A DNA stretch of 64,000 bases from Daphnia pulex (Eukaryota > Arthropoda > Branchiopoda > Diplostraca > Daphniidae), in assembly GCF_021134715.1 (NCBI RefSeq), contig NC_060018.1, positions 7,209,501 to 7,273,500 on the forward strand. The letters are read 5' to 3'. The notes below the pieces were generated by a model that made no database searches, was not told the origin of the DNA, and saw nothing but the letters and a program-made list of their open reading frames with translations. The position numbers were made by a program, and so were the translations under genes. Position 1 is the stretch's first letter, and each line of letters begins with the position of its first letter. Shown here one piece after another: positions 13,318-64,000 of the stretch.

Positions 13318-15462
13318 TTTGAGGTCAGTAAAAACTTGTCTGAAACTCACAAAAATGTCCAATACTAACTCGAGCTATAACGCCTCAGGTCGAAATTAAG
13401 GATGAGGAATTTTTATCTTTCGTTGCTAGGTTGGAGTTCGAACACATGACCGCGCGACAGGCCGACAGCACAATTCGTATTAGTTTATATATCCTCGTCT
13501 GTTGCCGGCACATTCCCATAGTTACAAGTGCCAGACGATTACGTAATAAGGATTTAGACGATATTTCTTTCAATCTCTATGGGTTATGCAGCGCCACCTT
13601 CGTTCCTGTACTCTACAATAAGCGGGATTTCCACTTGAGCGCTGCATGAAGAGGCTTTACCAGTTTACCCATCAAAATAACACAGACACGATATTTCCCT
13701 GGCCTCATTGAGCCGCGTGGTTTATGTGCGCGCAGTCAGAATCCTTTTCGAAAGCTGAGAACTAATGGCAAAAGCTGACTTTGCTGCAGTGCGCAATTGA
13801 TATCCCGCGCATTTTACAGGAAATCTAACCAGATGTATTCAAGTCGGTCGGGACGATTTCAAAAATTTATGCATTATGCATTATTCACATTACATAAGAT
13901 TGTGAAACTTGTAATTGATACTAACGTTCAGTGGAAAAGGAAGGAGAGTATATTATAGCCAGACCATTTCCTACGACACTTTTTTTTCTCAGCAACTATC
14001 GGATCACAGCAACGGATCTTATTGATAACGAATACGAAGGCCAATCGACCAGACACCGGTCGTCGCTCGTCTAGTTCTAACGTCATATTTACTTTGAGGA
14101 CTTTGAGCGATTAAGCGCAATAACCTAAAGGTAAAAGATTGAACGCCACTTGAAAAATAGCAGCATCAGTTTTTTGAAACTTAAAATTTACTTCAGCTTG
14201 CCACTGAAGCAATAATCCGAAATAATGGCTGACAAATCCATTATTTTTTGACATTCCACTTTTATTGTACACATCAAACATTATTTGTTTTCAAAAGGAT
14301 TAATGCCATAGCAACAGCAGTCTACACGGATTCAAGTACTTTGTATTGACAGATAATCTAAAATCACCGACATAGTCTACTAAAATAAGATTCGAAAATT
14401 CCACAACCAAGTGCGTCCCCTTCCCTCTCCGTATGAATCGACCTTAAAATCGGCATGACGAACCAACTCGATCGATTTTGCCAGTTCAATATATAGTAAT
14501 AGGCAAATTTAGTTCATTAGGTGTACGATCACAGAATCACACCTGATAAATAACTACTCCGTATTTTCTTTCGACTTTCAAGGTTTCGTTAAACTTACAC
14601 TATAGCTACCATCTGCCAGATAGAAATTAATAAATTATGAACGTTATTGATAACGATTATATACTCGATATATAGCAGTTATAGCACACTGGAACGAAAC
14701 CGCCCCTCATTCAAATGCAAACAAGGCGGTGTTCCAGACCGCTCGTAGTCAATTGAATGCATTCAACCTTATCCGCTAGTCCTAGATTTTATCAAACAAA
14801 TTTTCTTTTTCAACCAAAAAATTATTTCAATGAATTTCAATCGTGTTGCTTGCTGGGTCATTAAAAAAAAGATAAAATTGCAATTCTGTTACCGCAGGTA
14901 AGGAGATGAAAGTGGCAAATATGTGAATCCGACATTTCCAGTATTTGAACCAATTAGCATTCGAATCTGAATGCAATCGTGAGAGTTCAATTCTATTCTT
15001 CTAATACCAAGTTTGCCCGTTGGCGGAAGCGATTTCAGCTTCACGAATCAGTATCATACCTGAAAATTCAAGAAAATGCACTCTGCAAATCAAAAAGTAA
15101 CTTATTATATAAACCCTTCCTTATGTCTTCCATTTTCCAAGTATAACATGACAGATCGGGCGAATCGAGGGATCGCTCAAAAGGGGGGAAAATGACAAGT
15201 GCGTCCCACCATCAGGACAATCCAGAACAAAAAGACGCAATCAATTACAAAAGCAGCACGACGCTAATGAGAAGACATAAGAATGAAAATTCCAAGAAAT
15301 CGGAAAATAAAATGAAAAAAACCAACGAGGTGATGTGAAACTGTTGAGGAACAAGAAAAAGAAAAACGATTAAATGACACGACAGCGCGATGATATAGGG
15401 CCTCTTCTATAACAAAACGTACACGACGCAGTTTACGACAAGGGTTAAATTCGTCACAGTGA
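13318..15462. other. Intergenic between HPRT and Duox
   Basis: About 2.1 kb containing the HPRT promoter side and the Duox 3' UTR side. I see no protein gene, tRNA or clear mobile element. A 72-codon frame at 13431 lies over the HPRT 5' flank and has no recognisable motif. Confidence 0.5.
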
Positions 15463-46896: not shown

Positions 46897-46998
46897 ATCT
46901 AGTAATAATATTTATTGGTTCACCAATATTTCCGTTTGACCTTACTGAAGAGCAGGTTAAATGAGAGATGCAAAATCCTAGCACTTTCTTTAAGTGTA

Positions 46999-47082
46999 GG
47001 TCGTGTGGCCTAATGGATAAGGCGTCGGACTTCTATGAAAGTAGTTATCCGAAAATTGCGGGTTCGAGTCCTGCCGCGATTA
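46999..47082 (+). tRNA. tRNA-Arg(TCT), unit 1, with 11-nt intron
   Basis: Folds as GGTCGTG acceptor, D arm GCCT/AGGC, anticodon stem TCGGA/TCCGA, loop CTTCTA-A and T loop TTCGAGT. The intron TGAAAGTAGTT is at 47036-47046, one base 3' of the anticodon. This copy has a G-T wobble in the T stem and a T-G wobble in the acceptor, absent from the other units. Confidence 0.95.
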
Positions 47083-47346
47083 ATAGCATATGACGAAACT
47101 ATTAGTTCATGATGAGTAGTAGTTAACCACAAACCATGGGGAATCATGTCAGATCAATAAAACTACAAATATATCTCGAACACTCAATGAATATCACTGG
47201 CTTGCATTGCCTTCACAGTGACGATTGAAATTGGCTGCTGATATAGCCTTGCTTGGTAGATACCTTAAATCATTCTCTCTAAAGACACACAGAGTATACC
47301 TAACTGATGATGAATGAACCTTTTATTAATATATTAAAAATTTATT

Positions 47347-47420
47347 GGCCTGTTAGCTCAGTTGGTTAGAGCGCCGTGCTAATAACGCGGAGGTCATGAG
47401 TTCGATCCTCTTACGGGCCA
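47347..47420 (+). tRNA. tRNA-Ile(AAT), unit 1
   Basis: Full cloverleaf: acceptor GGCCTGT/ACGGGCC, anticodon stem CCGTG/CGCGG with loop CTAATAA, T loop TTCGATC. 74 nt, no intron. A T4 run lies about 30 bp downstream. Confidence 0.97.
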
Positions 47421-47497
47421 CTATAATTCTTTCATTAAATATTTTCCACTCTAAAAAGGTACTGATAGATTCGAAATATTTTGCTAAAATAGTGAAT

Positions 47498-47579
47498 GCA
47501 GATATGGCCGAGTGGTTAAGGCGACTGACTCGAAATCAGTTTCCATCTTGGAGCGTAGGTTCGAATCCTACTATCTGCG
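47498..47579 (+). tRNA. tRNA-Ser(CGA), unit 1
   Basis: Type II tRNA of 82 nt: acceptor GCAGATA/TATCTGC, anticodon loop CTCGAAA, long variable arm TTCCATCTTGGAGC. TTTT follows directly as a Pol III terminator. Confidence 0.97.
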
Positions 47580-47800
47580 TTTTGTGGCATTTTATTGGTA
47601 AATGTAACTACACCACATTTGATCAAGTGACGCCAGAAGTTATTTCTAGTCATTTTTTGGGAGAACATCCAAGTTTAAAATCAGTAGGGGAGTACACAGT
47701 GAGAGAAGAACGAAAGGTCTTTAGGTCTTTAGCATATGTGATGGCCCTGGACAAGACAAGACAAACTAAGCAACGGGGTGACCCTGGATAAGGCATGCTC

Positions 47801-48022
47801 TCAACAATGGTCCGTACGAGTGGTAAGAACAGTCAGGTCCATCGAAGTCGAGGTCTGTGATCGTAGGCCAGGTTTAGATAGTTTCTAAAAGTAGATGAGA
47901 GACAACAAGTACACGTTGCCGAGAATGCACCTTACCATCATGACCAGCGTCTTGAATTCAGCGCGTTGTTGCTCCAGGAACCAGTGAAGACGGCAGAGAA
48001 GGATGAGAGAGTCAGAGTTCAC
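47801..48022 (-). pseudogene. Exon-like coding fragment carried in every array unit
   Basis: On the minus strand, an 87-bp block (48022-47936; 29 codons, VNSDSLILLCRLHWFLEQQR onward) is flanked by acceptor TTTTACAG and donor GTAAGG. A 51-bp intron ending CTTTTAG joins it in frame to an 84-bp block (47884-47801) that ends in a stop. I do not recognise the protein. Copies lie at 50280-50501, 52758-52979, 55237-55458, 57715-57936, 61151-61372 and 63629-63850. The unit-6 copy has lost the acceptor AG. It is probably a gene piece captured when the unit formed; a working small gene is less likely. Confidence 0.5.
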
Positions 48023-48214
48023 CTGTAAAACAGCAGAATAAGTTCCGCTGCCAAGTAATTGTCACTGGCAAAGGTTTCCAAGTTTAAGCATGCCATTTCA
48101 GCGATTTCCCAACACTTGGACCAATGAAAATTTTTGCTTGAAAACAGTAAAACAAAAGACAAGTAATTGCCAATTTAACGACGATTTTCGATAATTATAG
48201 TTTCGGTTGCTCGC

Positions 48215-48287
48215 TACCTCTGGCGAGACTCGAACTCGCAATCCCCGGCTTAGGAGGCCGGTGCCTTATCCATTAGGCCACAAAGGC
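48215..48287 (-). tRNA. tRNA-Arg(CCT), unit 1
   Basis: 73 nt: acceptor GCCTTTG/CAGAGGT (wobbles), D arm GCCTAATGGATAAGGC identical to that of tRNA-Arg(TCT), anticodon stem CCGGC/GCCGG with loop CTCCTAA. Reads AGG codons. Confidence 0.96.
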
Positions 48288-48793
48288 TGAGTTATGTTGA
48301 ATCTCCTATTCGAGGAATGACGTTATATTGCAAAGCTTTTTCCTAGAAGATAGCCAAACGTCCCATGTTGTATAAACATACAGCGATTACCGTCTGTGGA
48401 CATCGTCTCAATCTTGAAAACCATGTTTTTTGAATAATCTTAACTACAAACTCTATTTACAGCTTTCGAGTTCTATAACTGGACATACATTTACTATTGC
48501 AATTAGTTGTATCAAATATCAAGGCTTTCTACTCTCACAATGAGGGATACTCTTTCTCACTATCTCATTTCATTATTTGTGTATGTTCCACGACCTATAT
48601 CCGAATGTACTTCCTTTTGGTTCGCACTTTCTCTACATCGTAGGAATTAACGTAAAGAAACACCATGAGAACTCGTGTTGTCGTCTATGAACATCTATGA
48701 ATTCTGCCCATAATGGTGAATGATTTCAAACGATATTAACTTGATAATAAATGGTGGAAAACCAACAATACTAACTAAAATCAAAAGACTAGC

Positions 48794-48866
48794 CGCCCGA
48801 TAAGGGACTTGAACCCTTGACCTCAGGATTAAAAGTCCCGCGCTCTACCGTCTGAGCTAACCGGGC
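48794..48866 (-). tRNA. tRNA-Lys(TTT), unit 1
   Basis: 73 nt: acceptor GCCCGGT/ATCGGGC, anticodon loop CTTTTAA, T loop TTCAAGT. A T4 run begins 8 nt past the 3' end. Confidence 0.97.
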
Positions 48867-49277
48867 TTAATAATTGGTATTGCAATAGTTTTCCGTTCGA
48901 GTTCATTTTTAAATTTTACGATTGCTTATAGATCTTTTACGGACGGAAGTACGGACGTTTTTCTATTCTTCGTAAACAAAATGGGTACACATTCTTTCAT
49001 CCTATAATTTGTCTCTGACTACATTTTGTGTTTGTAAACTACACTCAAAGACCGCCATAATGCATTTCGGCACTGGTTCTGAAAAATAGACACGTTTCTG
49101 GAAACGCCAAGTAACAGGTCATGGCTCCACGGTTCCGAGATAGATCCCGGGACCTAGGATACCCATGACTGCACAGTTAATATTTGTAATCATGCGTAAA
49201 TTTGAGATACTAGTAAACGATTGAAAATGAGTTGTTCCACTAGAAAATACTAGCATGTGAAACAAATGGCAATTCAC

Positions 49278-49359
49278 CGCAGTTGGTAGGGTTCGAACCT
49301 ACGCCCTCAGAGAGGAATAGATTTCAAGTCTATCGCCTTAACCACTCGGCCACAACTGC
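49278..49359 (-). tRNA. tRNA-Ser(TGA), unit 1
   Basis: Type II tRNA of 82 nt: acceptor GCAGTTG/CAACTGC, anticodon stem ATAGA/TCTAT with loop CTTGAAA, long variable arm CCTCTCTGAGGGC. Shares its D arm with tRNA-Ser(CGA). Confidence 0.97.
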
Positions 49360-49477
49360 CCCGATTTTTCAGACAATCTAGTAATAATATTTATTGGTTC
49401 ACCAATATTTCCGTTTGACCTTACTGAAGAGCAGGTTAAATGAGAGATGCAAAATCCTAGCACTTTCTTTAAGTGTA

Positions 49478-49561
49478 GGTCGTGTGGCCTAATGGATAAG
49501 GCGTCGGACTTCTATGAAAGTAGTTATCCGAAAATTGCGGGTTCGAGTCCCGCCACGATTA
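49478..49561 (+). tRNA. tRNA-Arg(TCT), unit 2, with 11-nt intron
   Basis: Standard array form with T stem GCGGG/CCCGC and acceptor 3' strand CACGATT. Intron at 49515-49525. The first T4 run downstream is 239 bp away (49800-49803), just before tRNA-Ile. Confidence 0.97.
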
Positions 49562-49825
49562 ATAGCATATGACGAAACTATTAGTTCATGATGAGTAGTA
49601 GTTAACCACAAACCATGGGGAATCATGTCAGATCAATAAAACTACAAATATATCTCGAACACTCAATGAATATCACTGGCTTGCATTGCCTTCACAGTGA
49701 CGATTGAAATTGGCTGCTGATATAGCCTTGCTTGGTAGATACCTTAAATCATTCTCTCTAAAGACACACAGAGTATACCTAACTGATGATGAATGAACCT
49801 TTTATTAATATATTAAAAATTTATT

Positions 49826-49899
49826 GGCCTGTTAGCTCAGTTGGTTAGAGCGCCGTGCTAATAACGCGGAGGTCATGAGTTCGATCCTCTTACGGGCCA
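49826..49899 (+). tRNA. tRNA-Ile(AAT), unit 2
   Basis: Identical to the unit 1 copy, with loop CTAATAA and a complete cloverleaf. Confidence 0.97.
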
Positions 49900-49976
49900 C
49901 TATAATTCTTTCATTAAATATTTTCCACTCTAAAAAGGTACTGATACATTCGAAATATTTTGCTAAAATAGTGAAT

Positions 49977-50058
49977 GCAGATATGGCCGAGTGGTTAAGG
50001 CGACTGACTCGAAATCAGTTTCCATCTTGGAGCGTAGGTTCGAATCCTACTATCTGCG
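49977..50058 (+). tRNA. tRNA-Ser(CGA), unit 2
   Basis: Identical to the unit 1 copy, followed at once by TTTT. Confidence 0.97.
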
Positions 50059-50692
50059 TTTTGTGGCATTTTATTGGTAAATGTAACTACACAACATTTG
50101 ATCAAGTGACGCCAGAAGTTATTTCTAGTCATTTTTTGGGAGAACATCCAAGTTTAAAATCAGTAGGGGAGTACACAGTGAGAGAAGAACGAAAGGTCTT
50201 TAGGTCTTTAGCATATGTGATGGCCCTGGACAAGACAAGACAAACTAAGCAACGGGGTGACCCTGGATAAGGCATGCTCTCAACAATGGTCCGTACGAGT
50301 GGTAAGAACAGTCAGGTCCATCGAAGTCGAGGTCTGTGATCGTAGGCCAGGTTTAGATAGTTTCTAAAAGTAGATGAGAGACAACAAGTACACATTGCCG
50401 AGAATGCACCTTACCATCATGACCAGCGTCTTGAATTCAGCGCGTTGTTGCTCCAGGAACCAGTGAAGACGGCAGAGAAGGATGAGAGAGTCAGAGTTCA
50501 CCTGTAAAACAGCAGAATAAGTTCCGCTGCCAAGTAATTGTCACTGGCAAAGGTTTCCAAGTTTAAGCATGCCATTTCAGCGATTTCCCAACACTTGGAC
50601 CAATGAAAATTTTTGCTTGAAAACAGTAAAACAAAAGACAAGTAATTGCCATATAACGACGATTTTCGATAATTATAGTTTCGGTTGCTCGC

Positions 50693-50765
50693 TACCTCTG
50701 GCGAGACTCGAACTCGCAATCCCCGGCTTAGGAGGCCGGTGCCTTATCCATTAGGCCACAAAGGC
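50693..50765 (-). tRNA. tRNA-Arg(CCT), unit 2
   Basis: Same sequence as unit 1. The type B one-base deletion lies just downstream of its 3' end. The nearest T4 run is about 56 nt past the gene. Confidence 0.96.
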
Positions 50766-51271
50766 TGAGTTATGTTGAATCTCCTATTCGAGGAATGACG
50801 TTATATTGCAAAGCTTTTTCCTAGAAGATAGCCAAACGTCCCATGTTATATAAACATACAGCGATTACCGTCTGTGGACATCGTCTCAATCTTGAAAACC
50901 ATGTTTTTTGAATAATCTTAACTACAAACTCTATTTACAGCTTTCGAGTTCTATAACTGGACATACATTTACTATTGCAATTAGTTGTATCAAATATCAA
51001 GGCTTTCTACTCTCACAATGAGGGATACTCTTTCTCACTATCTCATTTCATTATTTGTGTATGTTCCACGACCTATATCCTAATGTACTTCCTTTTGGTT
51101 CGCACTTTCTCTACATCGTAGGAATTAACGTAAAGAAACACCATGAGAACTCGTGTTGTCGTCTATGAACATCTATGAATTCTGCCCATAATGGTGAATG
51201 ATTTCAAACGATATTAACTTGATAATAAATGGTGGAAAACCAACAATACTAACTAAAATCAAAAGACTAGC

Positions 51272-51344
51272 CGCCCGATAAGGGACTTGAACCCTTGACC
51301 TCAGGATTAAAAGTCCCGCGCTCTACCGTCTGAGCTAACCGGGC
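51272..51344 (-). tRNA. tRNA-Lys(TTT), unit 2
   Basis: Same as unit 1, with a nearby T4 terminator. Confidence 0.97.
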
Positions 51345-51755
51345 TTAATAATTGGTATTGCAATAGTTTTCCGTTCGAGTTCATTTTTAAATTTTACGAT
51401 TGCTTATAGATCTTTTACGGACGGAAGTACGGACGTTTTTCTATTCTTCGTAAACAAAATGGGTACACATTCTTTCATCCTATAATTTGTCTCTGACTAC
51501 ATTTTGTGTTTGTAAACTACACTCAAAGACCGCCATAATGCATTTCGGCACTGGTTCTGAAAAATAGACACGTTTCTGGAAACGCCAAGTAACAGGTCAT
51601 GGCTCCACGGTTCCGAGATAGATCCCGGGACCTAGGATACCCATGACTGCACAGTTAATATTTGTAATCATGCGTAAATTTGAGATACTAGTAAACGATT
51701 GAAAATGAGTTGTTCCACTAGAAAATACTAGCATGTGAAACAAATGGCAATTCAC

Positions 51756-51837
51756 CGCAGTTGGTAGGGTTCGAACCTACGCCCTCAGAGAGGAATAGAT
51801 TTCAAGTCTATCGCCTTAACCACTCGGCCACAACTGC
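51756..51837 (-). tRNA. tRNA-Ser(TGA), unit 2
   Basis: Same as unit 1; long variable arm and loop CTTGAAA intact. Confidence 0.97.
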
Positions 51838-51955
51838 CCCGAATTTTCAGACAATCTAGTAATAATATTTATTGGTTCACCAATATTTCCGTTTGACCTT
51901 ACTGAAGAGCAGGTTAAATGAGAGATGCAAAATCCTAGCACTTTCTTTAAGTGTA

Positions 51956-52039
51956 GGTCGTGTGGCCTAATGGATAAGGCGTCGGACTTCTATGAAAGTA
52001 GTTATCCGAAAATTGCGGGTTCGAGTCCCGCCACGATTA
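51956..52039 (+). tRNA. tRNA-Arg(TCT), unit 3, with 11-nt intron
   Basis: Identical to unit 2. Intron at 51993-52003. Confidence 0.97.
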
Positions 52040-52303
52040 ATAGCATATGACGAAACTATTAGTTCATGATGAGTAGTAGTTAACCACAAACCATGGGGAA
52101 TCATGTCAGATCAATAAAACTACAAATATATCTCGAACACTCAATGAATATCACTGGCTTGCATTGCCTTCACAGTGACGATTGAAATTGGCTGCTGATA
52201 TAGCCTTGCTTGGTAGATACCTTAAATCATTCTCTCTAAAGACACACAGAGTATACCTAACTGATGATGAATGAACCTTTTATTAATATATTAAAAATAA
52301 ATT

Positions 52304-52377
52304 GGCCTGTTAGCTCAGTTGGTTAGAGCGCCGTGCTAATAACGCGGAGGTCATGAGTTCGATCCTCTTACGGGCCA
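52304..52377 (+). tRNA. tRNA-Ile(AAT), unit 3
   Basis: Gene identical to other copies. The base pairs just upstream differ (AAATAAATT). Confidence 0.97.
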
Positions 52378-52454
52378 CTATAATTCTTTCATTAAATATT
52401 TTCCACTCTAAAAAGGTACTGATACATTCGAAATATTTTGCTAAAATAGTGAAT

Positions 52455-52536
52455 GCAGATATGGCCGAGTGGTTAAGGCGACTGACTCGAAATCAGTTTC
52501 CATCTTGGAGCGTAGGTTCGAATCCTACTATCTGCG
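52455..52536 (+). tRNA. tRNA-Ser(CGA), unit 3
   Basis: Identical to unit 2. Confidence 0.97.
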
Positions 52537-53171
52537 TTTTGTGGCATTTTATTGGTAAATGTAACTACACAACATTTGATCAAGTGACGCCAGAAGTTAT
52601 TTCTAGTCATTTTTTGGGAGAACATCCAAGTTTAAAATCAGTAGGGGAGTACACAGTGAGAGAAGAACGAAAGGTCTTTAGGTCTTTAGCATATGTGATG
52701 GCCCTGGACAAGACAAGACAAACTAAGCAACGGGGTGACCCTGGATAAGGCATGCTCTCAACAATGGTCCGTACGAGTGGTAAGAACAGTCAGGTCCATC
52801 GAAGTCGAGGTCTGTGATCGTAGGCCAGGTTTAGATAGTTTCTAAAAGTAGATGAGAGACAACAAGTACACATTGCCGAGAATGCACCTTACCATCATGA
52901 CCAGCGTCTTGAATTCAGCGCGTTGTTGCTCCAGGAACCAGTGAAGACGGCAGAGAAGGATGAGAGAGTCAGAGTTCACCTGTAAAACAGCAGAATAAGT
53001 TCCGCTGCCAAGTAATTGTCACTGGCAAAGGTTTCCAAGTTTAAGCATGCCATTTCAGCGATTTCCCAACACTTGGACCAATGAAAATTTTTGCTTGAAA
53101 ACAGTAAAACAAAAGACAAGTAATTGCCAATTTAACGACGATTTTCGATAATTATAGTTTCGGTTGCTCGC

Positions 53172-53244
53172 TACCTCTGGCGAGACTCGAACTCGCAATC
53201 CCCGGCTTAGGAGGCCGGTGCCTTATCCATTAGGCCACAAAGGC
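53172..53244 (-). tRNA. tRNA-Arg(CCT), unit 3
   Basis: Identical to unit 1, with the type A downstream sequence. Confidence 0.96.
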
Positions 53245-53750
53245 TGAGTTATGTTGAATCTCCTATTCGAGGAATGACGTTATATTGCAAAGCTTTTTCC
53301 TAGAAGATAGCCAAACGTCCCATGTTATATAAACATACAGCGATTACCGTCTGTGGACATCGTCTCAATCTTGAAAACCATGTTTTTTGAATAATCTTAA
53401 CTACAAACTCTATTTACAGCTTTCGAGTTCTATAACTGGACATACATTTACTATTGCAATTAGTTGTATCAAATATCAAGGCTTTCTACTCTCGCAATGA
53501 GGGATACTCTTTCTCACTATCTCATTTCATTATTTGTGTATGTTCCACGACCTATATCCGAATGTACTTCCTTTTGGTTCGCACTTTCTCTACATCGTAG
53601 GAATTAACGTAAAGAAACACCATGAGAACTCGTGTTGTCGTCTATGAACATCTATGAATTCTGCCCATAATGGTGAATGATTTCAAACGATATTAACTTG
53701 ATAATAAATGGTGGAAAACCAACAATACTAACTTAAATCAGAAGACTAGC

Positions 53751-53823
53751 CGCCCGATAAGGGACTTGAACCCTTGACCTCAGGATTAAAAGTCCCGCGC
53801 TCTACCGTCTGAGCTAACCGGGC
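53751..53823 (-). tRNA. tRNA-Lys(TTT), unit 3, without its close terminator
   Basis: Gene body identical to other copies, but the 3' flank reads CTTCTGATTTAAG. Both nearby T4 runs are lost, and the next is about 32 nt downstream. Confidence 0.96.
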
Positions 53824-54234
53824 TTAATAATTGGTATTGCAATAGTTTTCCGTTCGAGTTCATTTTTAAATTTTACGATTGCTTATAGATCTTTTACGGA
53901 CGGAAGTACGGACGTTTTTCTATTCTTCGTAAACAAAATGGGTACACATTCTTTCATCCTATAATTTGTCTCTGACTACATTTTGTGTTTGTAAACTACA
54001 CTCAAAGACCGCCATAATGCATTTCGGCACTGGTTCTGAAAAATAGACACGTTTCTGGAAACGCCAAGTAACAGGTCATGGCTCCACGGTTCCGAGATAG
54101 ATCCCGGGACCTAGGATACCCATGACTGCACAGTTAATATTTGTAATCATGCGTAAATTTGAGATACTAGTAAACGATTGAAAATGAGTTGTTCCACTAG
54201 AAAATACTAGCATGTGAAACAAATGGCAATTCAC

Positions 54235-54316
54235 CGCAGTTGGTAGGGTTCGAACCTACGCCCTCAGAGAGGAATAGATTTCAAGTCTATCGCCTTAACC
54301 ACTCGGCCACAACTGC
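54235..54316 (-). tRNA. tRNA-Ser(TGA), unit 3
   Basis: Identical to unit 1. Confidence 0.97.
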
Positions 54317-54434
54317 CCCGATTTTTCAGACAATCTAGTAATAATATTTATTGGTTCACCAATATTTCCGTTTGACCTTACTGAAGAGCAGGTTAATTGA
54401 GAGATGCAAAATCCTAGCACTTTCTTTAAGTGTA

Positions 54435-54518
54435 GGTCGTGTGGCCTAATGGATAAGGCGTCGGACTTCTATGAAAGTAGTTATCCGAAAATTGCGGGTT
54501 CGAGTCCCGCCACGATTA
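54435..54518 (+). tRNA. tRNA-Arg(TCT), unit 4, with 11-nt intron
   Basis: Identical to unit 2. Intron at 54472-54482. Confidence 0.97.
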
Positions 54519-54782
54519 ATAGCATATGACGAAACTATTAGTTCATGATGAGTAGTAGTTAACCACAAACCATGGGGAATCATGTCAGATCAATAAAACT
54601 ACAAATATATCTCGAACACTCAATGAATATCACTGGCTTGCATTGCCTTCACAGTGACGATTGAAATTGGCTGCTGATATAGCCTTGCTTGGTAGATACC
54701 TTAAATCATTCTCTCTAAAGACACACAGAGTATACCTAACTGATGATGAATGAACCTTTTATTAATATATTAAGAATTTATT

Positions 54783-54856
54783 GGCCTGTTAGCTCAGTTG
54801 GTTAGAGCGCCGTGCTAATAACGCGGAGGTCATGAGTTCGATCCTCTTACGGGCCA
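54783..54856 (+). tRNA. tRNA-Ile(AAT), unit 4
   Basis: Identical to other copies. Confidence 0.97.
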
Positions 54857-54933
54857 CTATAATTCTTTCATTAAATATTTTCCACTCTAAAAAGGTACTG
54901 ATACATTCGAAATATTTTGCTAAAATAGTGAAT

Positions 54934-55015
54934 GCAGATATGGCCGAGTGGTTAAGGCGACTGACTCGAAATCAGTTTCCATCTTGGAGCGTAGGTTCGA
55001 ATCCTACTATCTGCG
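54934..55015 (+). tRNA. tRNA-Ser(CGA), unit 4
   Basis: Identical to unit 2. Confidence 0.97.
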
Positions 55016-55649
55016 TTTTGTGGCATTTTATTGGTAAATGTAACTACACAACATTTGATCAAGTGACGCCAGAAGTTATTTCTAGTCATTTTTTGGGAGA
55101 ACATCCAAGTTTAAAATCAGTAGGGGAGTACACAGTGAGAGAAGAACGAAAGGTCTTTAGGTCTTTAGCATATGTGATGGCCCTGGACAAGACAAGACAA
55201 ACTAAGCAACGGGGTGACCCTGGATAAGGCATGCTCTCAACAATGGTCCGTACGAGTGGTAAGAACAGTCAGGTCCATCGAAGTCGAGGTCTGTGATCGT
55301 AGGCCAGGTTTAGATAGTTTCTAAAAGTAGATGAGAGACAACAAGTACACATTGCCGAGAATGCACCTTACCATCATGACCAGCGTCTTGAATTCAGCGC
55401 GTTGTTGCTCCAGGAACCAGTGAAGACGGCAGAGAAGGATGAGAGAGTCAGAGTTCACCTGTAAAACAGCAGAATAAGTTCCGCTGCCAAGTAATTGTCA
55501 CTGGCAAAGGTTTCCAAGTTTAAGCATGCCATTTCAGCGATTTCCCAACACTTGGACCAATGAAAATTTTTGCTTGAAAACAGTAAAACAAAAGACAAGT
55601 AATTGCCATATAACGACGATTTTCGATAATTATAGTTTCGGTTGCTCGC

Positions 55650-55722
55650 TACCTCTGGCGAGACTCGAACTCGCAATCCCCGGCTTAGGAGGCCGGTGCC
55701 TTATCCATTAGGCCACAAAGGC
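55650..55722 (-). tRNA. tRNA-Arg(CCT), unit 4
   Basis: Identical gene body, with type B downstream sequence. Confidence 0.96.
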
Positions 55723-56228
55723 TGAGTTATGTTGAATCTCCTATTCGAGGAATGACGTTATATTGCAAAGCTTTTTCCTAGAAGATAGCCAAACGTCCCA
55801 TGTTATATAAACATACAGCGATTACCGTCTGTGGACATCGTCTCAATCTTGAAAACCATGTTTTTTGAATAATCTTAACTACAAACTCTATTTACAGCTT
55901 TCGAGTTCTATAACTGGACATACATTTACTATTGCAATTAGTTGTATCAAATATCAAGGCTTTCTACTCTCGCAATGAGGGATACTCTTTCTCACTATCT
56001 CATTTCATTATTTGTGTATGTTCCACGACCTATATCCGAATGTACTTCCTTTTGGTTCGCACTTTCTCTACATCGTAGGAATTAACGTAAAGAAACACCA
56101 TGAGAACTCGTGTTGTCGTCTATGAACATCTATGAATTCTGCCCATAATGGTGAATGATTTCAAACGATATTAACTTGATAATAAATGGTGGAAAACCAA
56201 CAATACTAACTAAAATCAGAAGACTAGC

Positions 56229-56301
56229 CGCCCGATAAGGGACTTGAACCCTTGACCTCAGGATTAAAAGTCCCGCGCTCTACCGTCTGAGCTAACCGGG
56301 C
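56229..56301 (-). tRNA. tRNA-Lys(TTT), unit 4
   Basis: Identical gene body. The first T4 run is weakened to TTCT, but a second remains about 13 nt downstream. Confidence 0.97.
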
Positions 56302-56712
56302 TTAATAATTGGTATTGCAATAGTTTTCCGTTCGAGTTCATTTTTAAATTTTACGATTGCTTATAGATCTTTTACGGACGGAAGTACGGACGTTTTTCTA
56401 TTCTTCGTAAACAAAATGGGTACACATTCTTTCATCCTATAATTTGTCTCTGACTACATTTTGTGTTTGTAAACTACACTCAAAGACCGCCATAATGCAT
56501 TTCGGCACTGGTTCTGAAAAATAGACACGTTTCTGGAAACGCCAAGTAACAGGTCATGGCTCCACGGTTCCGAGATAGATCCCGGGACCTAGGATACCCA
56601 TGACTGCACAGTTAATATTTGTAATCATGCGTAAATTTGAGATACTAGTAAACGATTGAAAATGAGTTGTTCCACTAGAAAATACTAGCATGTGAAACAA
56701 ATGGCAATTCAC

Positions 56713-56794
56713 CGCAGTTGGTAGGGTTCGAACCTACGCCCTCAGAGAGGAATAGATTTCAAGTCTATCGCCTTAACCACTCGGCCACAACTGC
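56713..56794 (-). tRNA. tRNA-Ser(TGA), unit 4
   Basis: Identical to unit 1. Confidence 0.97.
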
Positions 56795-56912
56795 CCCGAT
56801 TTTTCAGACAATCTAGTAATAATATTTATTGGTTCACCAATATTTCCGTTTGACCTTACTGAAGAGCAGGTTAAATGAGAGATGCAAAATCCTAACACTT
56901 TCTTTAAGTGTA

Positions 56913-56996
56913 GGTCGTGTGGCCTAATGGATAAGGCGTCGGACTTCTATGAAAGTAGTTATCCGAAAATTGCGGGTTCGAGTCCCGCCACGATTA
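56913..56996 (+). tRNA. tRNA-Arg(TCT), unit 5, with 11-nt intron
   Basis: Identical to unit 2. Intron at 56950-56960. Confidence 0.97.
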
Positions 56997-57260
56997 ATAG
57001 CATATGACGAAACTATTAGTTCATGATGAGTAGTAGTTAACCACAAACCATGGGGAATCATGTCAGATCAATAAAACTACAAATATATCTCGAACACTCA
57101 ATGAATATCACTGGCTTGCATTGCCTTCACAGTGACGATTGAAATTGGCTGCTGATATAGCCTTGCTTGGTAGATACCTTAAATCATTCTCTCTAAAGAC
57201 ACACAGAGTATACCTAACTGATGATGAATGAACCTTTTATTAATATATTAAGAATTTATT

Positions 57261-57334
57261 GGCCTGTTAGCTCAGTTGGTTAGAGCGCCGTGCTAATAAC
57301 GCGGAGGTCATGAGTTCGATCCTCTTACGGGCCA
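57261..57334 (+). tRNA. tRNA-Ile(AAT), unit 5
   Basis: Identical to other copies. Confidence 0.97.
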
Positions 57335-57411
57335 CTATAATTCTTTCATTAAATATTTTCCACTCTAAAAAGGTACTGATACATTCGAAATATTTTGCTA
57401 AAATAGTGAAT

Positions 57412-57493
57412 GCAGATATGGCCGAGTGGTTAAGGCGACTGACTCGAAATCAGTTTCCATCTTGGAGCGTAGGTTCGAATCCTACTATCTGCG
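57412..57493 (+). tRNA. tRNA-Ser(CGA), unit 5
   Basis: Identical to unit 2. Confidence 0.97.
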
Positions 57494-58128
57494 TTTTGTG
57501 GCATTTTATTGGTAAATGTAACTACACAACATTTGATCAAGTGACGCCAGAAGTTATTTCTAGTCATTTTTTGGGAGAACATCCAAGTTTAAAATCAGTA
57601 GGGGAGTACACAGTGAGAGAAGAACGAAAGGTCTTTAGGTCTTTAGCATATGTGATGGCCCTGGACAAGACAAGACAAACTAAGCAACGGGGTGACCCTG
57701 GATAAGGCATGCTCTCAACAATGGTCCGTACGAGTGGTAAGAACAGTCAGGTCCATCGAAGTCGAGGTCTGTGATCGTAGGCCAGGTTTAGATAGTTTCT
57801 AAAAGTAGATGAGAGACAACAAGTACACATTGCCGAGAATGCACCTTACCATCATGACCAGCGTCTTGAATTCAGCGCGTTGTTGCTCCAGGAACCAGTG
57901 AAGACGGCAGAGAAGGATGAGAGAGTCAGAGTTCACCTGTAAAACAGCAGAATAAGTTCCGCTGCCAAGTAATTGTCACTGGCAAAGGTTTCCAAGTTTA
58001 AGCATGCCATTTCAGCGATTTCCCAACACTTGGACCAATGAAAATTTTTGCTTGAAAACAGTAAAACAAAAGACAAGTAATTGCCAATTTAACGACGATT
58101 TTCGATAATTATAGTTTCGGTTGCTCGC

Positions 58129-58201
58129 TACCTCTGGCGAGACTCGAACTCGCAATCCCCGGCTTAGGAGGCCGGTGCCTTATCCATTAGGCCACAAAGG
58201 C
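58129..58201 (-). tRNA. tRNA-Arg(CCT), unit 5
   Basis: Identical to unit 1, with type A downstream sequence. Confidence 0.96.
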
Positions 58202-58707
58202 TGAGTTATGTTGAATCTCCTATTCGAGGAATGACGTTATATTGCAAAGCTTTTTCCTAGAAGATAGCCAAACGTCCCATGTTATATAAACATACAGCGA
58301 TTACCGTCTGTGGACATCGTCTCAATCTTGAAAACCATGTTTTTTGAATAATCTTAACTACAAACTCTATTTACAGCTTTCGAGTTCTATAACTGGACAT
58401 ACATTTACTATTGCAATTAGTTGTATCAAATATCAAGGCTTTCTACTCTCACAATGAGGGATACTCTTTCTCACTATCTCATTTCATTATTTGTGTATGT
58501 TCCACGACCTATATCCGAATGTACTTCCTTTTGGTTCGCACTTTCTCTACATCGTAGGAATTAACGTAAAGAAACACCATGAGAACTCGTGTTGTCGTCT
58601 ATGAACATCTATGAATTCTGCCCATAATGGTGAATGATTTCAAACGATATTAACTTGATAATAAATGGTGGAAAACCAACAATACTAACTAAAATCAAAA
58701 GACTAGC

Positions 58708-58780
58708 CGCCCGATAAGGGACTTGAACCCTTGACCTCAGGATTAAAAGTCCCGCGCTCTACCGTCTGAGCTAACCGGGC
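58708..58780 (-). tRNA. tRNA-Lys(TTT), unit 5
   Basis: Identical to unit 1, with its close T4 runs. Confidence 0.97.
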
Positions 58781-59191
58781 TTAATAATTGGTATTGCAAT
58801 AGTTTTCCGTTCGAGTTCATTTTTAAATTTTACGATTGCTTATAGATCTTTTACGGACGGAAGTACGGACGTTTTTCTATTCTTCGTAAACAAAATGGGT
58901 ACACATTCTTTCATCCTATAATTTGTCTCTGACTACATTTTGTGTTTGTAAACTACACTCAAAGACCGCCATAATGCATTTCGGCACTGGTTCTGAAAAA
59001 TAGACACGTTTCTGGAAACGCCAAGTAACAGGTCATGGCTCCACGGTTCCGAGATAGATCCCGGGACCTAGGATACCCATGACTGCACAGTTAATATTTG
59101 TAATCATGCGTAAATTTGAGATACTAGTAAACGATTGAAAATGAGTTGTTCCACTAGAAAATACTAGCATGTGAAACAAATGGCAATTCAC

Positions 59192-59273
59192 CGCAGTTGG
59201 TAGGGTTCGAACCTACGCCCTCAGAGAGGAATAGATTTCAAGTCTATCGCCTTAACCACTCGGCCACAACTGC
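59192..59273 (-). tRNA. tRNA-Ser(TGA), unit 5
   Basis: Identical to unit 1. Confidence 0.97.
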
Positions 59274-59429
59274 CCCGAATTTTTAGACAATCTAGTAATA
59301 ATATTTATTGGTTCACCAATATTTCCGTTTGACCTTACTGAAGAGCAGGTTAAATGAGAGATGCAAAATCCAAGCACTTTCTTTAAGCGTAGGTCGTGTG
59401 GCCTAATGGATAAGGCGTCGGACTTCTAT

Positions 59430-59437
59430 GAAAGTAG
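59430..59437 (+). repeat. Left target-site duplication of the hAT insertion
   Basis: GAAAGTAG directly before the element, repeated exactly at 60387-60394. In uninterrupted units the sequence occurs once, within the tRNA intron. Confidence 0.95.
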
Positions 59438-60386
59438 CAGTGGCTCCTATCTTTTTTTTTTACCCTAGAGTTAAAGATACTAAAAAAAAATTGCCCGAAA
59501 AAAAATTTAAGTTAAGTTATTCAGAAATACCGAAAAAAAATTCTAAGATACAAGATATTATCTGAAAAAAAAGTAAAGATAAGTTATTTCCGAATTTTTA
59601 TGGTGGGAAAAAGATAAGATAAGTTAAGATAAGATATAAGTTATTTTTTAGTAAAAAAAAAGGAAAAAGAACATTTGAGTTGATAAATTGTTGAATTTCT
59701 GCATTGTATTGCATGACAAGCCTTACTTTTAGTTTACACAGCAATGACAGCATCACGTAAACCAACTTTAAGCCCTGCGTTGCACTTGATAAGCATCAAG
59801 TTGACGAAAAGTTCTGGTTTCATGGCTGCGCGTTTTGCTGTTAAAATATCCGAAGCCACACTGAAAGCTCGTTCAACAGATCCTGATGATGCTGCAGCGC
59901 TAACAACATCTCTGCCGATTTCGCTTAGTATTCGAAAACGACACTGATTAGATTTCCAATACTCGAGGGGCTTAGTGACGCAAAGGTCACCGTCGGGATC
60001 CATTGAATTCACTGGAACTTCCATAGCTACGATGGGTTCTTTTAAATAAGTCCCCAACTCATCCAATACTTTGGCCGGGCGCTGAAAGCATTTCGCTGAA
60101 AGCATGGCTGAAAGTAGTCTGCTACGTCCTGATGAGTCAGCTGTCAGGGTCAGGCCTTGGCCTTAAAAATTTTATCCCTCAAAGTAAATCATTTTTTTTA
60201 CCGCTAGATGGGATCTCAAGTATCTTATCTTTTAGGGCCAAATAATACCATTATTTTCATACCCTAAAGTTAAAAATACTTTATTTTAACTGAATTTTAC
60301 ACAAGATAAAAGATACCAAAAAGATACCAAAAATATCTTATCTTAGCTTATCTTAACTTACCTTTTACAAAAGATAGGAGCCACTG
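59438..60386. mobile_element. hAT-superfamily DNA transposon remnant (949 bp)
   Basis: Bounded by an 18-bp perfect terminal inverted repeat, CAGTGGCTCCTATCTTTT, and an 8-bp target duplication; both are hallmarks of hAT elements. Subterminal regions carry many AAGATAAG / CTTATCTT motifs in opposite orientation (59611-59640 and 60331-60360), likely transposase-binding repeats. Inside, on the minus strand, is only the C-terminal end of a transposase. The element is therefore an internally deleted, non-autonomous copy. Its sharp ends and exact duplication suggest a recent insertion. Confidence 0.95.
59734..60105 (-). pseudogene. C-terminal fragment of a hAT transposase (dimerisation domain)
   Basis: A 123-codon open frame containing LEYWKSNQCRFRILSEIGRD and SSGSVERAFSVASDILTAKR, the hAT C-terminal dimerisation motif. 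The N-terminal BED zinc finger and the catalytic RNase-H-like core are absent, since the whole element is only 949 bp. It is a relic, not an active enzyme. Confidence 0.9.
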
Positions 60387-60394
60387 GAAAGTAG
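60387..60394 (+). repeat. Right target-site duplication of the hAT insertion
   Basis: Second copy of GAAAGTAG, after which the tRNA intron and 3' half resume. Confidence 0.95.
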
Positions 60395-60696
60395 TTATCC
60401 GAAAATTGCGGGTTCGAGTCCCGCCACGATTAATAGCATATGACGAAACTATTAGTTCATGATGAGTAGTAGTTAACCACAAACCATGGGGAATCATGTC
60501 AGATCAATAAAACTACAAATATATCTCGAACACTCAATGAATATCACTGGCTTGCATTGCCTTCACAGTGACGATTGAAATTGGCTGCTGATATAGCCTT
60601 GCTTGGTAGATACCTTAAATCATTCTCTCTAAAGACACACAGAGTATACCTAACTGATGATGAATGAACCTTTTATTAATATATTAAGAATTTATT

Positions 60697-60770
60697 GGCC
60701 TGTTAGCTCAGTTGGTTAGAGCGCCGTGCTAATAACGCGGAGGTCATGAGTTCGATCCTCTTACGGGCCA
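60697..60770 (+). tRNA. tRNA-Ile(AAT), unit 6
   Basis: Identical to other copies. Confidence 0.97.
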
Positions 60771-60847
60771 CTATAATTCTTTCATTAAATATTTTCCACT
60801 CTAAAAAGGTACTGATAGATTTGAAATATTTTGCTAAAATAGTGAAT

Positions 60848-60929
60848 GCAGATATGGCCGAGTGGTTAAGGCGACTGACTCGAAATCAGTTTCCATCTTG
60901 GAGCGTAGGTTCGAATCCTACTATCTGCG
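60848..60929 (+). tRNA. tRNA-Ser(CGA), unit 6
   Basis: Identical to unit 2. Confidence 0.97.
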
Positions 60930-61563
60930 TTTTGTGGCATTTTATTGGTAAATGTAACTACACAACATTTGATCAAGTGACGCCAGAAGTTATTTCTAGT
61001 CATTTTTTGGGAGAACATCCAAGTTTAAAATCAGTAGGGGAGTACACAGTGAGAGAAGAACGAAAGGTCTTTAGGTCTTTAGCATATGTGATGGCCCTGG
61101 ACAAGACAAGACAAACTAAGCAACGGGGTGACCCTGGATAAGGCATGCTCTCAACAATGGTCCGTACGAGTGGTAAGAACAGTCAGGTCCATCGAAGTCG
61201 AGGTCTGTGATCGTAGGCCAGGTTTAGATAGTTTCTAAAAGTAGATGAGAGACAACAAGTACACATTGCCGAGAATGCACCTTACCATCATGACCAGCGT
61301 CTTGAATTCAGCGCGTTGTTGCTCCAGGAACCAGTGAAGACGGCAGAGAAGGATGAGAGAGTCAGAGTTCACTTGTAAAACAGCAGAATAAGTTCCGCTG
61401 CCAAGTAATTGTCACTGGCAAAGGTTTCCAAGTTTAAGCATGCCATTTCAGCGATTTCCCAACACTTGGACCAATGAAAATTTTTGCTTTAAAACAGTAA
61501 AACAAAAGACAAGTAATTGCCATATAACGACGATTTTCGATAATTATAGTTTCGGTTGCTCGC

Positions 61564-61636
61564 TACCTCTGGCGAGACTCGAACTCGCAATCCCCGGCTT
61601 AGGAGGCCGGTGCCTTATCCATTAGGCCACAAAGGC
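61564..61636 (-). tRNA. tRNA-Arg(CCT), unit 6
   Basis: Identical gene body, with type B downstream sequence. Confidence 0.96.
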
Positions 61637-62142
61637 TGAGTTATGTAGAATCTCCTATTCGAGGAATGACGTTATATTGCAAAGCTTTTTCCTAGAAGAT
61701 AGCCAAACGTCCCATGTTGTATAAACATACAGCGATTACCGTCTGTGGACATCGTCTCAATCTTGAAAACCATGTTTTTTGAATAATCTTAACTACAAAC
61801 TCTATTTACAGCTTTCGAGTTCTATAACTGGACATACATTTACTATTGCAATTAGTTGTATCAAATATCAAGGCTTTCTACTCTCACAATGAGGGATACT
61901 CTTTCTCACTATCTCATTTCATTATTTGTGTATGTTCCACGACCTATATCCGAATGTACTTCCTTTTGGTTCGCACTTTCTCTACATCGTAGGAATTAAC
62001 GTAAAGAAACACCATGAGAACTCGTGTTGTCGTCTATGAACATCTATGAATTCTGCCCATAATGGTGAATGATTTCAAACGATATTAACTTGATAATAAA
62101 TGGTGGAAAACCAACAATACTAACTAAAATCAAAAGACTAGC

Positions 62143-62215
62143 CGCCCGATAAGGGACTTGAACCCTTGACCTCAGGATTAAAAGTCCCGCGCTCTACCGT
62201 CTGAGCTAACCGGGC
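62143..62215 (-). tRNA. tRNA-Lys(TTT), unit 6
   Basis: Identical to unit 1. Confidence 0.97.
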
Positions 62216-62626
62216 TTAATAATTGGTATTGCAATAGTTTTCCGTTCGAGTTCATTTTTAAATTTTACGATTGCTTATAGATCTTTTACGGACGGAAGTA
62301 CGGACGTTTTTCTATTCTTCGTAAACAAAATGGGTACACATTCTTTCATCCTATAATTTGTCTCTGACTACATTTTGTGTTTGTAAACTACACTCAAAGA
62401 CCGCCATAATGCATTTCGGCACTGGTTCTGAAAAATAGACACGTTTCTGGAAACGCCAAGTAACAGGTCATGGCTCCACGGTTCCGAGATAGATCCCGGG
62501 ACCTAGGATACCCATGACTGCACAGTTAATATTTGTAATCATGCGTAAATTTGAGATACTAGTAAACGATTGAAAATGAGTTGTTCCACTAGAAAATACT
62601 AGCATGTGAAACAAATGGCAACTCAC

Positions 62627-62708
62627 CGCAGTTGGTAGGGTTCGAACCTACGCCCTCAGAGAGGAATAGATTTCAAGTCTATCGCCTTAACCACTCGGCC
62701 ACAACTGC
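62627..62708 (-). tRNA. tRNA-Ser(TGA), unit 6
   Basis: Identical to unit 1. The flank has one private change (AACTCACC for AATTCACC). Confidence 0.97.
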
Positions 62709-62826
62709 CCCGATTTTTCAGACAATCTAGTAATAATATTTATTGGTTCACCAATATTTCCGTTTGACCTTACTGAAGAGCAGGTTAAATGAGAGATGCA
62801 AAATCCTAGCACTTTCTTTAAGTGTA

Positions 62827-62910
62827 GGTCGTGTGGCCTAATGGATAAGGCGTCGGACTTCTATGAAAGTAGTTATCCGAAAATTGCGGGTTCGAGTCCC
62901 GCCACGATTA
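62827..62910 (+). tRNA. tRNA-Arg(TCT), unit 7, with 11-nt intron
   Basis: Identical to unit 2, without the transposon. Intron at 62864-62874. Confidence 0.97.
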
Positions 62911-63174
62911 ATAGCATATGACGAAACTATTAGTTCATGATGAGTAGTAGTTAACCACAAACCATGGGGAATCATGTCAGATCAATAAAACTACAAATAT
63001 ATCTCGAACACTCAATGAATATCACTGGCTTGCATTGCCTTCACAGTGACGATTGAAATTGGCTGCTGATATAGCCTTGCTTGGTAGATACCTTAAATCA
63101 TTCTCTCTAAAGACACACAGAGTATACCTAACTGATGATGAATGAACCTTTTATTAATATATTAAAAATTTATT

Positions 63175-63248
63175 GGCCTGTTAGCTCAGTTGGTTAGAGC
63201 GCCGTGCTAATAACGCGGAGGTCATGAGTTCGATCCTCTTACGGGCCA
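63175..63248 (+). tRNA. tRNA-Ile(AAT), unit 7
   Basis: Identical to other copies. Confidence 0.97.
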
Positions 63249-63325
63249 CTATAATTCTTTCATTAAATATTTTCCACTCTAAAAAGGTACTGATACATTC
63301 GAAATATTTTGCTAAAATAGTGAAT

Positions 63326-63407
63326 GCAGATATGGCCGAGTGGTTAAGGCGACTGACTCGAAATCAGTTTCCATCTTGTAGCGTAGGTTCGAATCCTACT
63401 ATCTGCG
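63326..63407 (+). tRNA. tRNA-Ser(CGA), unit 7, variable-arm variant
   Basis: One change from the other copies, G to T at 63379. It turns GGA to GTA in the variable-arm stem and breaks its middle pair. The rest of the cloverleaf is intact, so the gene may still work. Confidence 0.93.
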
Positions 63408-64000
63408 TTTTGTGGCATTTTATTGGTAAATGTAACTACACAACATTTGATCAAGTGACGCCAGAAGTTATTTCTAGTCATTTTTTGGGAGAACATCCAA
63501 GTTTAAAATCAGTAGGGGAGTACACAGTGAGAGAAGAACGAAAGGTCTTTAGGTCTTTAGCATATGTGATGGCCCTGGACAAGACAAGACAAACTAAGCA
63601 ACGGGGTGACCCTGGATAAGGCATGCTCTCAACAATGGTCCGTACGAGTGGTAAGAACAGTCAGGTCCATCGAAGTCGAGGTCTGTGATCGTAGGCCAGG
63701 TTTAGATAGTTTCTAAAAGTAGATGAGAGACAACAAGTACACATTGCCGAGAATGCACCTTACCATCATGACCAGCGTCTTGAATTCAGCGCGTTGTTGC
63801 TCCAGGAACCAGTGAAGACGGCAGAGAAGGATGAGAGAGTCAGAGTTCACCTGTAAAACAGCAGAATAAGTTCCGCTGCCAAGTAATTGTCACTGGCAAA
63901 GGTTTCCAAGTTTAAGCATGCCATTTCAGCGATTTCCCAACACTTGGACCAATGAAAATTTTTGCTTGAAAACAGTAAAACAAAAGACAAGTAATTGCCA

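Follow-up and report, generated by a model that had tools for sequence, protein, structure and literature searches.

The window analyzed here, a 64,000-nt stretch of the Daphnia pulex genome (C2:7209501-7273500), contains no N and lies on contig C2 (NC_060018.1) of assembly GCF_021134715.1, which comprises 133,188,837 bases on 13 contigs. Its right end, positions 46897-64000, is an array of head-to-tail units with a period of 2478/2479 bp. Each unit carries genes for tRNA-Arg(TCT), Ile(AAT), and Ser(CGA) on the plus strand, followed by Arg(CCT), Lys(TTT), and Ser(TGA) on the minus strand. An earlier note had proposed a tandem array of a 2.48-kb unit with these six tRNA genes; ARAGORN, Rfam, and the repeat period bear this out, and the ARAGORN calls agree with the order and strands that it gave.

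Organization of the array

All units lie in the plus orientation. The array enters the window with the last 102 bp of a unit, all spacer (46897-46998, a 100% match to unit positions 2377-2478), and continues with unit 1 (46999-49477, 2479 bp, 99.6% identical to unit 2), unit 2 (49478-51955, 2478 bp, our reference), unit 3 (51956-54434, 2479 bp, 99.6%), unit 4 (54435-56912, 2478 bp, 99.8%), and unit 5 (56913-59391, 2479 bp, 99.7%). Over their full length units 1-5 are thus 99.6-100% identical to the reference. Unit 6 (59392-62826) measures 3435 bp with an insertion and matches unit positions 1-46 and then 39-2478 at 99.6%, and unit 7 is a 1174-bp partial copy (62827-64000, 99.9%). The seven near-identical units counted in the earlier note are therefore six complete units, one of them enlarged, and a partial seventh. 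The unit has a G+C content of ~40%, and no short tandem repeats were reported inside it outside the insertion.

ARAGORN finds 37 tRNAs in the window when introns are disallowed and 39 loci when they are allowed, matching the number proposed earlier. Rfam places 38 of the 39 above its cut-off at 55-70.7 bits, indicating structurally intact genes; the remaining locus, Arg(TCT) of unit 6, is broken. The Arg(TCT) genes, which carry an 11-nt intron and were called by Rfam and by ARAGORN with introns allowed, occupy 46999-47082, 49478-49561, 51956-52039, 54435-54518, and 56913-56996 in units 1-5 and 62827-62910 in unit 7; the unit 2 copy folds at z -2.8. The other five genes were called by both programs. 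Across units 1-7, Ile(AAT) lies at 47347-47421, 49826-49900, 52304-52378, 54783-54857, 57261-57335, 60697-60771, and 63175-63249, and Ser(CGA) at 47497-47580, 49976-50059, 52454-52537, 54933-55016, 57411-57494, 60847-60930, and 63325-63408. On the minus strand of units 1-6, Arg(CCT) occupies 48215-48287, 50693-50765, 53172-53244, 55650-55722, 58129-58201, and 61564-61636; Lys(TTT) occupies 48794-48866, 51272-51344, 53751-53823, 56229-56301, 58708-58780, and 62143-62215; and Ser(TGA) occupies 49278-49359, 51756-51837, 54235-54316, 56713-56794, 59192-59273, and 62627-62708. The broken Arg(TCT) gene (59392-60432, plus strand) is interrupted within its intron, with matches to unit positions 1-46 and from 39 onward, and ARAGORN miscalls it as a Leu gene with a 966-nt intron.

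As the earlier note had supposed, the array continues past the right edge of the window. It extends from C2:7.256 to at least 7.444 Mb, ~190 kb, with the last Arg(TCT) match at C2:7443566, ~170 kb beyond the window. All main-array counts given here are exclusive of the 62,000 bases directly right of the window, which could hold ~25 more units.

Other clusters of the unit

A probe consisting of Arg(TCT) with its intron has 81 matches in the genome, all 81 in seven clusters on C2, C3, C8, and C10. The main cluster (C2:7.256-7.444 Mb) holds 39 of them. Two further clusters lie on the same contig, A7 (C2:7.088-7.104 Mb, 6 matches) and the inverted B8 (C2:8.208-8.284 Mb, 19 matches), and the others are found at C3:3.320-3.333 Mb (6), C10:7.677-7.694 Mb (7), C3:3.143-3.147 Mb (2), and C8:1.760-1.763 Mb (2). 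The clusters are at least 1.7 Mb from contig ends. Ser(CGA) and Arg(CCT) probes give 84 and 78 matches, respectively, with four of each outside the clusters. A looser probe, the 5' half of Arg(TCT), has 136 matches; of the 100 listed, ten fall outside the clusters, on C2, C5, C7, and C9, and seven represent a related Arg(TCG) gene that belongs to another array.

The C8 cluster (C8:1760000-1765500) keeps the six-gene order at ~86% identity. Its Lys gene has the anticodon CTT, as against TTT in the other clusters read, a difference that bears on how tRNA anticodons change. At C3:3.320-3.334 Mb, Ser(CGA) is decayed in all six copies scored (33.5-45.3 bits), suggesting that homogenization can also spread damage.

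Some local variants were seen in passing. Cluster A7 contains two Arg(CCT) genes (C2:7088997 and C2:7103203) with a change that reads as a TCT anticodon, and at C10:7.675-7.695 Mb Arg(CCT) is doubled at a distance of 194 bp in several units. Arg(TCT)/Arg(CCT) groups at C2:10968358-10973977 and C2:11162358-11167977 recur exactly 194,000 bases apart, reflecting either a large duplication or an assembly effect.

Units are homogenized cluster by cluster

To compare units, we used the 58 intervals between Arg(TCT) starts, of which 46 (length 2400-2560, no N) were aligned; 12 were dropped, including both from C10b, the unit with the insertion, and those with duplications or deletions. The tree and all counts cover the clusters other than that at C3:3.14 Mb, and pairwise divergence was computed from 23 units in all. 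Units of the main array differ pairwise by 0.0065 in their genes and by 0.0060 in their spacers. Divergence rises to 0.015-0.022 between the main array and A7 and B8 on the same contig. Relative to the main array, spacers diverge by ~0.052 in C3 and C10 and by 0.141 in C8, and genes by 0.013 in C10, 0.033 in C8, and 0.044 in C3.

In a maximum-likelihood tree of the 46 units, each of the five clusters with at least two units sampled falls on one branch, although support for the B8 branch is weak (77/0). Cluster membership requires five changes over six groups, the minimum possible, and none of 200 shuffles was as low. All 46 aligned complete units are distinct sequences. Units less than 10 kb apart differ at 14.2 sites and the others at 21.7 (34 vs 219 pairs; 0 of 5000 permutations as low), and one 3.7-kb stretch has a second copy, 5.5 kb distant, that differs by a single mismatch. 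Similarity shows no rank correlation with distance (rho 0.017); we therefore rejected a smooth decay with distance and retain the near-neighbor effect alone. In our reading, whole units often undergo unequal exchange or conversion over short distances.

Both divergence and the tree show that units are more alike within than between arrays, which supports concerted evolution of whole units, cluster by cluster, as in ribosomal DNA (rDNA). The earlier note had suggested such whole-unit homogenization on the grounds that spacer identity equals gene identity. Its conclusion gains support from the cluster tree, the divergence within and between clusters, and the likeness of near neighbors. Its premise is correct for pairwise divergence, but polymorphic sites are far denser in genes and their upstream flanks, and equal identity by itself would not separate homogenization from a recent burst.

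Variation is concentrated in genes and upstream flanks

Polymorphic sites were counted within clusters and pooled over five clusters, leaving out columns near gaps. They make up 115 of 2314 positions in genes including the intron (5.0%) and 104 of 7082 in spacer more than 50 bp away (1.5%). Upstream of the genes the count is 37/283 (13.1%) at 1-10 bp, 18/290 at 11-20, 9/290 at 21-30, 7/273 at 31-40, and 2/239 at 41-50 bp; downstream it is 9/298, 9/289, and 6/298 at 1-10, 11-20, and 21-30 bp. Polymorphism is thus 3.4 times denser in genes and 9 times denser in the upstream 10 bp than in distant spacer (Fisher test, 4e-19 and 2e-21). Genes exceed spacer in each of the five clusters taken singly (p 3e-5 to 0.048; smallest sample two units), and the upstream 30 bp exceed distant spacer for all six genes. 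When the gene map was rotated along the unit, the value for the upstream 30 bp was matched or exceeded at 6 of 2478 offsets. Consensus divergence from the main array is likewise highest just upstream, reaching 0.08 in B8, 0.20 in C3, 0.22 in C10, and 0.45 in C8; distant spacer in the same order gives 0.01, 0.04, 0.04, and 0.10, and genes give 0.00-0.03.

McDonald-Kreitman-style counts (sites polymorphic in the main array/fixed, gap-adjacent columns kept) compare genes with distant spacer. They give 39/0 vs 44/14 against A7 with B8, 39/6 vs 44/49 against C3, 39/2 vs 44/54 against C10 (p 4e-9), and 39/13 vs 44/140 against C8; p ranges from 6e-4 to 3e-11 over the comparisons, in which the outer samples are small (two units for C10 and one for C8). 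Gene changes are dense within clusters yet few are fixed between them, implying that changes enter genes faster than spacer and rarely fix. On our interpretation the mutations are transcription-associated and are removed by selection and homogenization, which would explain both the dense gene polymorphism and its rare fixation. In a second array, which carries Gly and Trp genes (nine units), genes are also more variable (16/143 vs 45/849, p 0.013).

Insertions, rearrangements, and a conserved spacer block

The insertion in unit 6 is a 949-bp remnant of a hAT transposon (59438-60386) with perfect 18-bp terminal inverted repeats, an 8-bp target duplication, and a C-terminal piece of transposase on the minus strand (Dimer_Tnp_hAT match, E 3.1e-12). 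A search confined to the main locus found one copy in its 122 readable kb. Dada elements target tRNA or snRNA genes, with a 6-7 bp duplication at a fixed site in one RNA gene, according to the report describing them (PMC3706591); we rejected Dada as the source since the duplication here is 8 bp and the insert encodes a hAT domain instead of a Dada transposase.

Elsewhere in the part of the main array that was read, a 545-bp duplication and the loss of unit positions 470-1795 each occur in more than one unit, and recurrent unit lengths include 1.7 kb and 3.0 kb; we take such repeatedly altered units as a further sign of unequal exchange. One tRNA-Ile gene is interrupted by a 6.6-kb element with 515-bp long terminal repeats (LTRs) that are 99.6% alike. 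The piece of this element that was searched has no Pfam match, and the element may be BEL/Pao-like. The array also contains a 7.2-kb element flanked by TTAA that encodes a DDE_Tnp_1_7 (piggyBac-type) transposase. Pokey is described as a Daphnia piggyBac element that inserts at TTAA (PMC3849761), and the 7.2-kb element is a candidate Pokey copy. A 100-N assembly gap interrupts the main array at C2:7389902-7390001, and the adjoining 1.9-kb unit piece is inverted; since the piece abuts the gap, its inversion may be a scaffolding error, and we dropped it as an array event.

One spacer block, at unit positions of about 800-1110 (50277-50587 in unit 2), is conserved: its 50-bp windows (801-1100) match the C8 unit at 90-98%, whereas the other spacer windows mostly lie at 55-92% and one (1951-2000) at 98%. 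A probe made from this block matches the genome at 85 places, of which 83 belong to the clusters; the remaining two are relics, a unit remnant at C3:2.368 Mb and a C7 copy that contains a stop. On its minus strand the block holds an exon-like frame with splice-like signals on either side, for which a parent gene was not found. A captured coding exon was considered and set aside, the 29-codon frame having no Pfam or PDB match.

To the left of the array the window contains reading frames of animal type, and six of the seven frames scanned have a Pfam match. The domains include a haem peroxidase with EF hands beside ferric-reductase/NAD-binding domains (a dual-oxidase-like arrangement), MIF4G, MA3, ICMT, and ubiquitin hydrolase. 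The dual-oxidase-like frames span 15463-19148, and G+C is ~0.49-0.54 between positions 16 and 20 kb, above the rest of the window.

Other tRNA arrays in the genome

Several further tRNA arrays of other composition are present. C12 carries a 1440-bp unit with Lys(TTT), Ser(GCT), Gln(CTG), Met(CAT), and Arg(ACG). Two units read at C10:9.82-9.88 Mb, ~1423 bp each, contain Pro(CGG), Gln(TTG), His(GTG), Pro(TGG), Leu(AAG or GAG), and Arg(TCG), and a unit of ~1.0 kb at C10:8.98-9.03 Mb combines Gly(GCC) and Trp(CCA). Match spacing points to additional arrays of Gly (C10:5.09-5.17 Mb, ~0.97 kb), initiator Met (C2 and C7, ~0.42-0.48 kb), and Asp (C10:5.17-5.34 Mb, ~0.51 kb).

Gly(GCC) has 377 matches, and 99 of the 100 listed are on C10; Asp has 85, ten of them off C10; and initiator Met has 115, with five scattered singles among the 100 listed. 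Together with Arg(TCT), Ser(CGA), and Arg(CCT), these probes match mainly in arrays (for Gly and Met, among the matches listed), and the tandem arrangement of tRNA genes may be genome-wide. Lys(TTT) also has scattered copies among the 100 of its 113 matches listed. The Ala probe used had no genome match. On C12, tRNA positions at 14124-15619 and 2996790-2998285 repeat at a constant offset of 2,982,666 bases, as does another C12 pair.

Discussion

We interpret the window as holding the left end of a ~190-kb array, one of several that supply tRNA genes, in which units are homogenized by cluster, genes are mutated through transcription, and the whole acts as a buffered reservoir; we assign this reading a probability of roughly 0.75. 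Transcription by RNA polymerase III (Pol III) would raise the mutation rate at the array's tRNA genes. Redundancy among units would let damaged genes persist for a while, until exchange between units, together with selection on the total tRNA output of the array, substitutes intact units for the damaged ones. A case in which this fails, and exchange spreads the decayed copy instead, would be Ser(CGA) in the C3:3.32-Mb cluster. The array would then be a buffered, high-copy reservoir of tRNA genes, as rDNA is for rRNA. Thornlow and colleagues reportedly described, in 2018, transcription-associated mutation at tRNA genes, with immediate flanks more variable and the genes conserved in the long term; the present pattern differs in that it is seen among tandem copies within one genome and is raised inside the genes too. 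Related reports describe raised mutation at tRNA gene flanks (PMC8113476) and, from Daphnia mutation-accumulation work, more mutations in highly transcribed regions (PMC12915781).

Several results weigh against this interpretation. Under rotation of the gene map, the excess in genes was matched or exceeded at 47 of 2478 offsets, a moderate excess. The upstream 20 bp have 33 polymorphic and 13 fixed sites vs 44/54 in distant spacer, a surplus of polymorphism not expected from a raised neutral mutation rate alone. The Gly/Trp array lacks the upstream excess (2/60), and the C12 array, with 4 of 1440 positions varying over 3.8 units and none of these in the listed tRNA genes, is too uniform to tell. 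Sense-strand bias is weak (C>T vs G>A, p 0.049; A>G vs T>C, p 0.16). Four of the six cluster consensuses lack a T4 run in the 260 nt past the ARAGORN end of Arg(TCT), the other two have one only at 234-239 nt, and Arg(CCT) has a T4 run only at 53-58 nt. In C3, pairwise divergence from the main array is almost as large for genes (0.044) as for spacers (0.053), measured on one C3 unit. Transcription of the array genes is suggested indirectly, by the mutation profile and selection, and the variants, drawn from assembly sequence alone, may include sequencing or polishing errors.

Several competing accounts were weighed. Exchange might be less frequent near tRNA genes, or selection might be relaxed, and either could shape the profile without extra mutation; the peak of polymorphism beside genes fits this view, as does the fact that, upstream, fixed differences peak less strongly than polymorphism. 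However, consensus divergence is also highest just upstream in all four comparisons with the main array, and relaxed selection cannot lift variation above neutral spacer. In concerted-evolution theory, how fast arrays diverge is set by mutation and not by the rate of exchange. We regard this explanation as unlikely. Alternatively, the units could now be mainly satellite DNA with tRNA passengers, most copies silent and selection nearly absent, in keeping with the many variants inside genes, the decay of Ser(CGA) in all six scored copies at C3:3.32 Mb, and the lack of near T-runs for some genes. Against this view, gene changes segregate and seldom fix (0-13 fixed vs 14-140 in distant spacer), all 38 unbroken window genes score 55-70.7 bits, and the matches listed for three further isotypes likewise fall mostly in arrays; this account has little chance of being right.

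Two further accounts concern the origin and number of the units. Each cluster may lately have expanded from one unit, with no ongoing homogenization, as the low and about equal pairwise divergence of genes and spacers in the main array would allow and as near-identical neighbors (two B8 units differ at 2 sites) might suggest. Yet the C8 cluster, with its six-gene order kept at ~86% identity, argues that the repeat form is old, and clusters contain nested variation, deletion and duplication units, and element insertions; several independent recent bursts from an old stock would amount to turnover anyway. We consider recent amplification improbable. That the assembler invented the number or order of units is highly improbable: such repeats are hard to assemble, only assembly sequence without reads was used, and order and count are doubtful near the gap with its inverted piece, but all 46 aligned complete units differ, insertions occur in single units, and the seven clusters lie on four contigs, the five others sampled differing by ~2-14% from the main array in spacers. 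Genes with known domains to the left of the array and the absence of N from the window also speak against an artifact.

Tandem tRNA arrays are already known, and the Daphnia array is a new, rich member of this class. The tDNA repeat of Xenopus laevis, ~3.2 kb, is likewise a multi-tRNA unit in a long homogeneous array; its gene set and genome-wide spread differ. Arrays of rDNA and 5S genes share whole-unit homogenization, tolerance of transposon insertions, and redundancy, whereas the Daphnia unit combines, on its two strands, many small Pol III genes of various kinds. Entamoeba arrays (Tawari et al., PMC2652664) resemble those described here in having multi-tRNA tandem units, several array kinds per genome, and uniform units for which concerted evolution was proposed. 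The Daphnia arrays differ in their animal host, in that no short tandem repeats were reported in the unit outside the insertion, and in the location of the clusters at least 1.7 Mb from contig ends. They also show sequence divergence between clusters and decayed genes, whereas the Entamoeba paper reports no clear evidence of pseudogenes. The human 1q23.3 repeat (Darrow and Chadwick, PMC4041453) is also an animal macrosatellite with several tRNA genes per unit and ~98% uniformity. It is described as a single locus with a 7.3-kb GC-rich unit and a proposed CTCF boundary role, in contrast to the 2.48-kb unit of ~40% G+C, the seven clusters on four contigs, and the further array kinds of Daphnia. 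Large tRNA clusters are reported to have arisen many times in eukaryotes (survey, PMC2888827), and none of the entries listed in searches of the open-licence literature concerns nuclear tRNA arrays in Daphnia.

A broader, tentative proposal, to which we give slightly less than even odds, is that D. pulex, like Entamoeba, houses the majority of its kinds of tRNA gene in tandem arrays resembling satellite DNA, in which transcription-driven Pol III hypermutation would be continually offset by whole-unit exchange and selection at the level of the array. Descriptions of tandem tRNA arrays have treated them as a peculiarity of Entamoeba (PMC2652664) or as single loci in animals. Many of them appear to be present, on chromosome-size contigs, in D. 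pulex, a small model animal that is bred clonally and for which mutation-accumulation lines exist. With six genes on two strands and spacer beside them, the mutation of Pol III genes, homogenization, and selection on redundant genes become separately measurable in one locus. If the proposal is true, the germ-line Pol III activity of each gene could be read from the variation at its start, and the spacer would serve as a built-in control.

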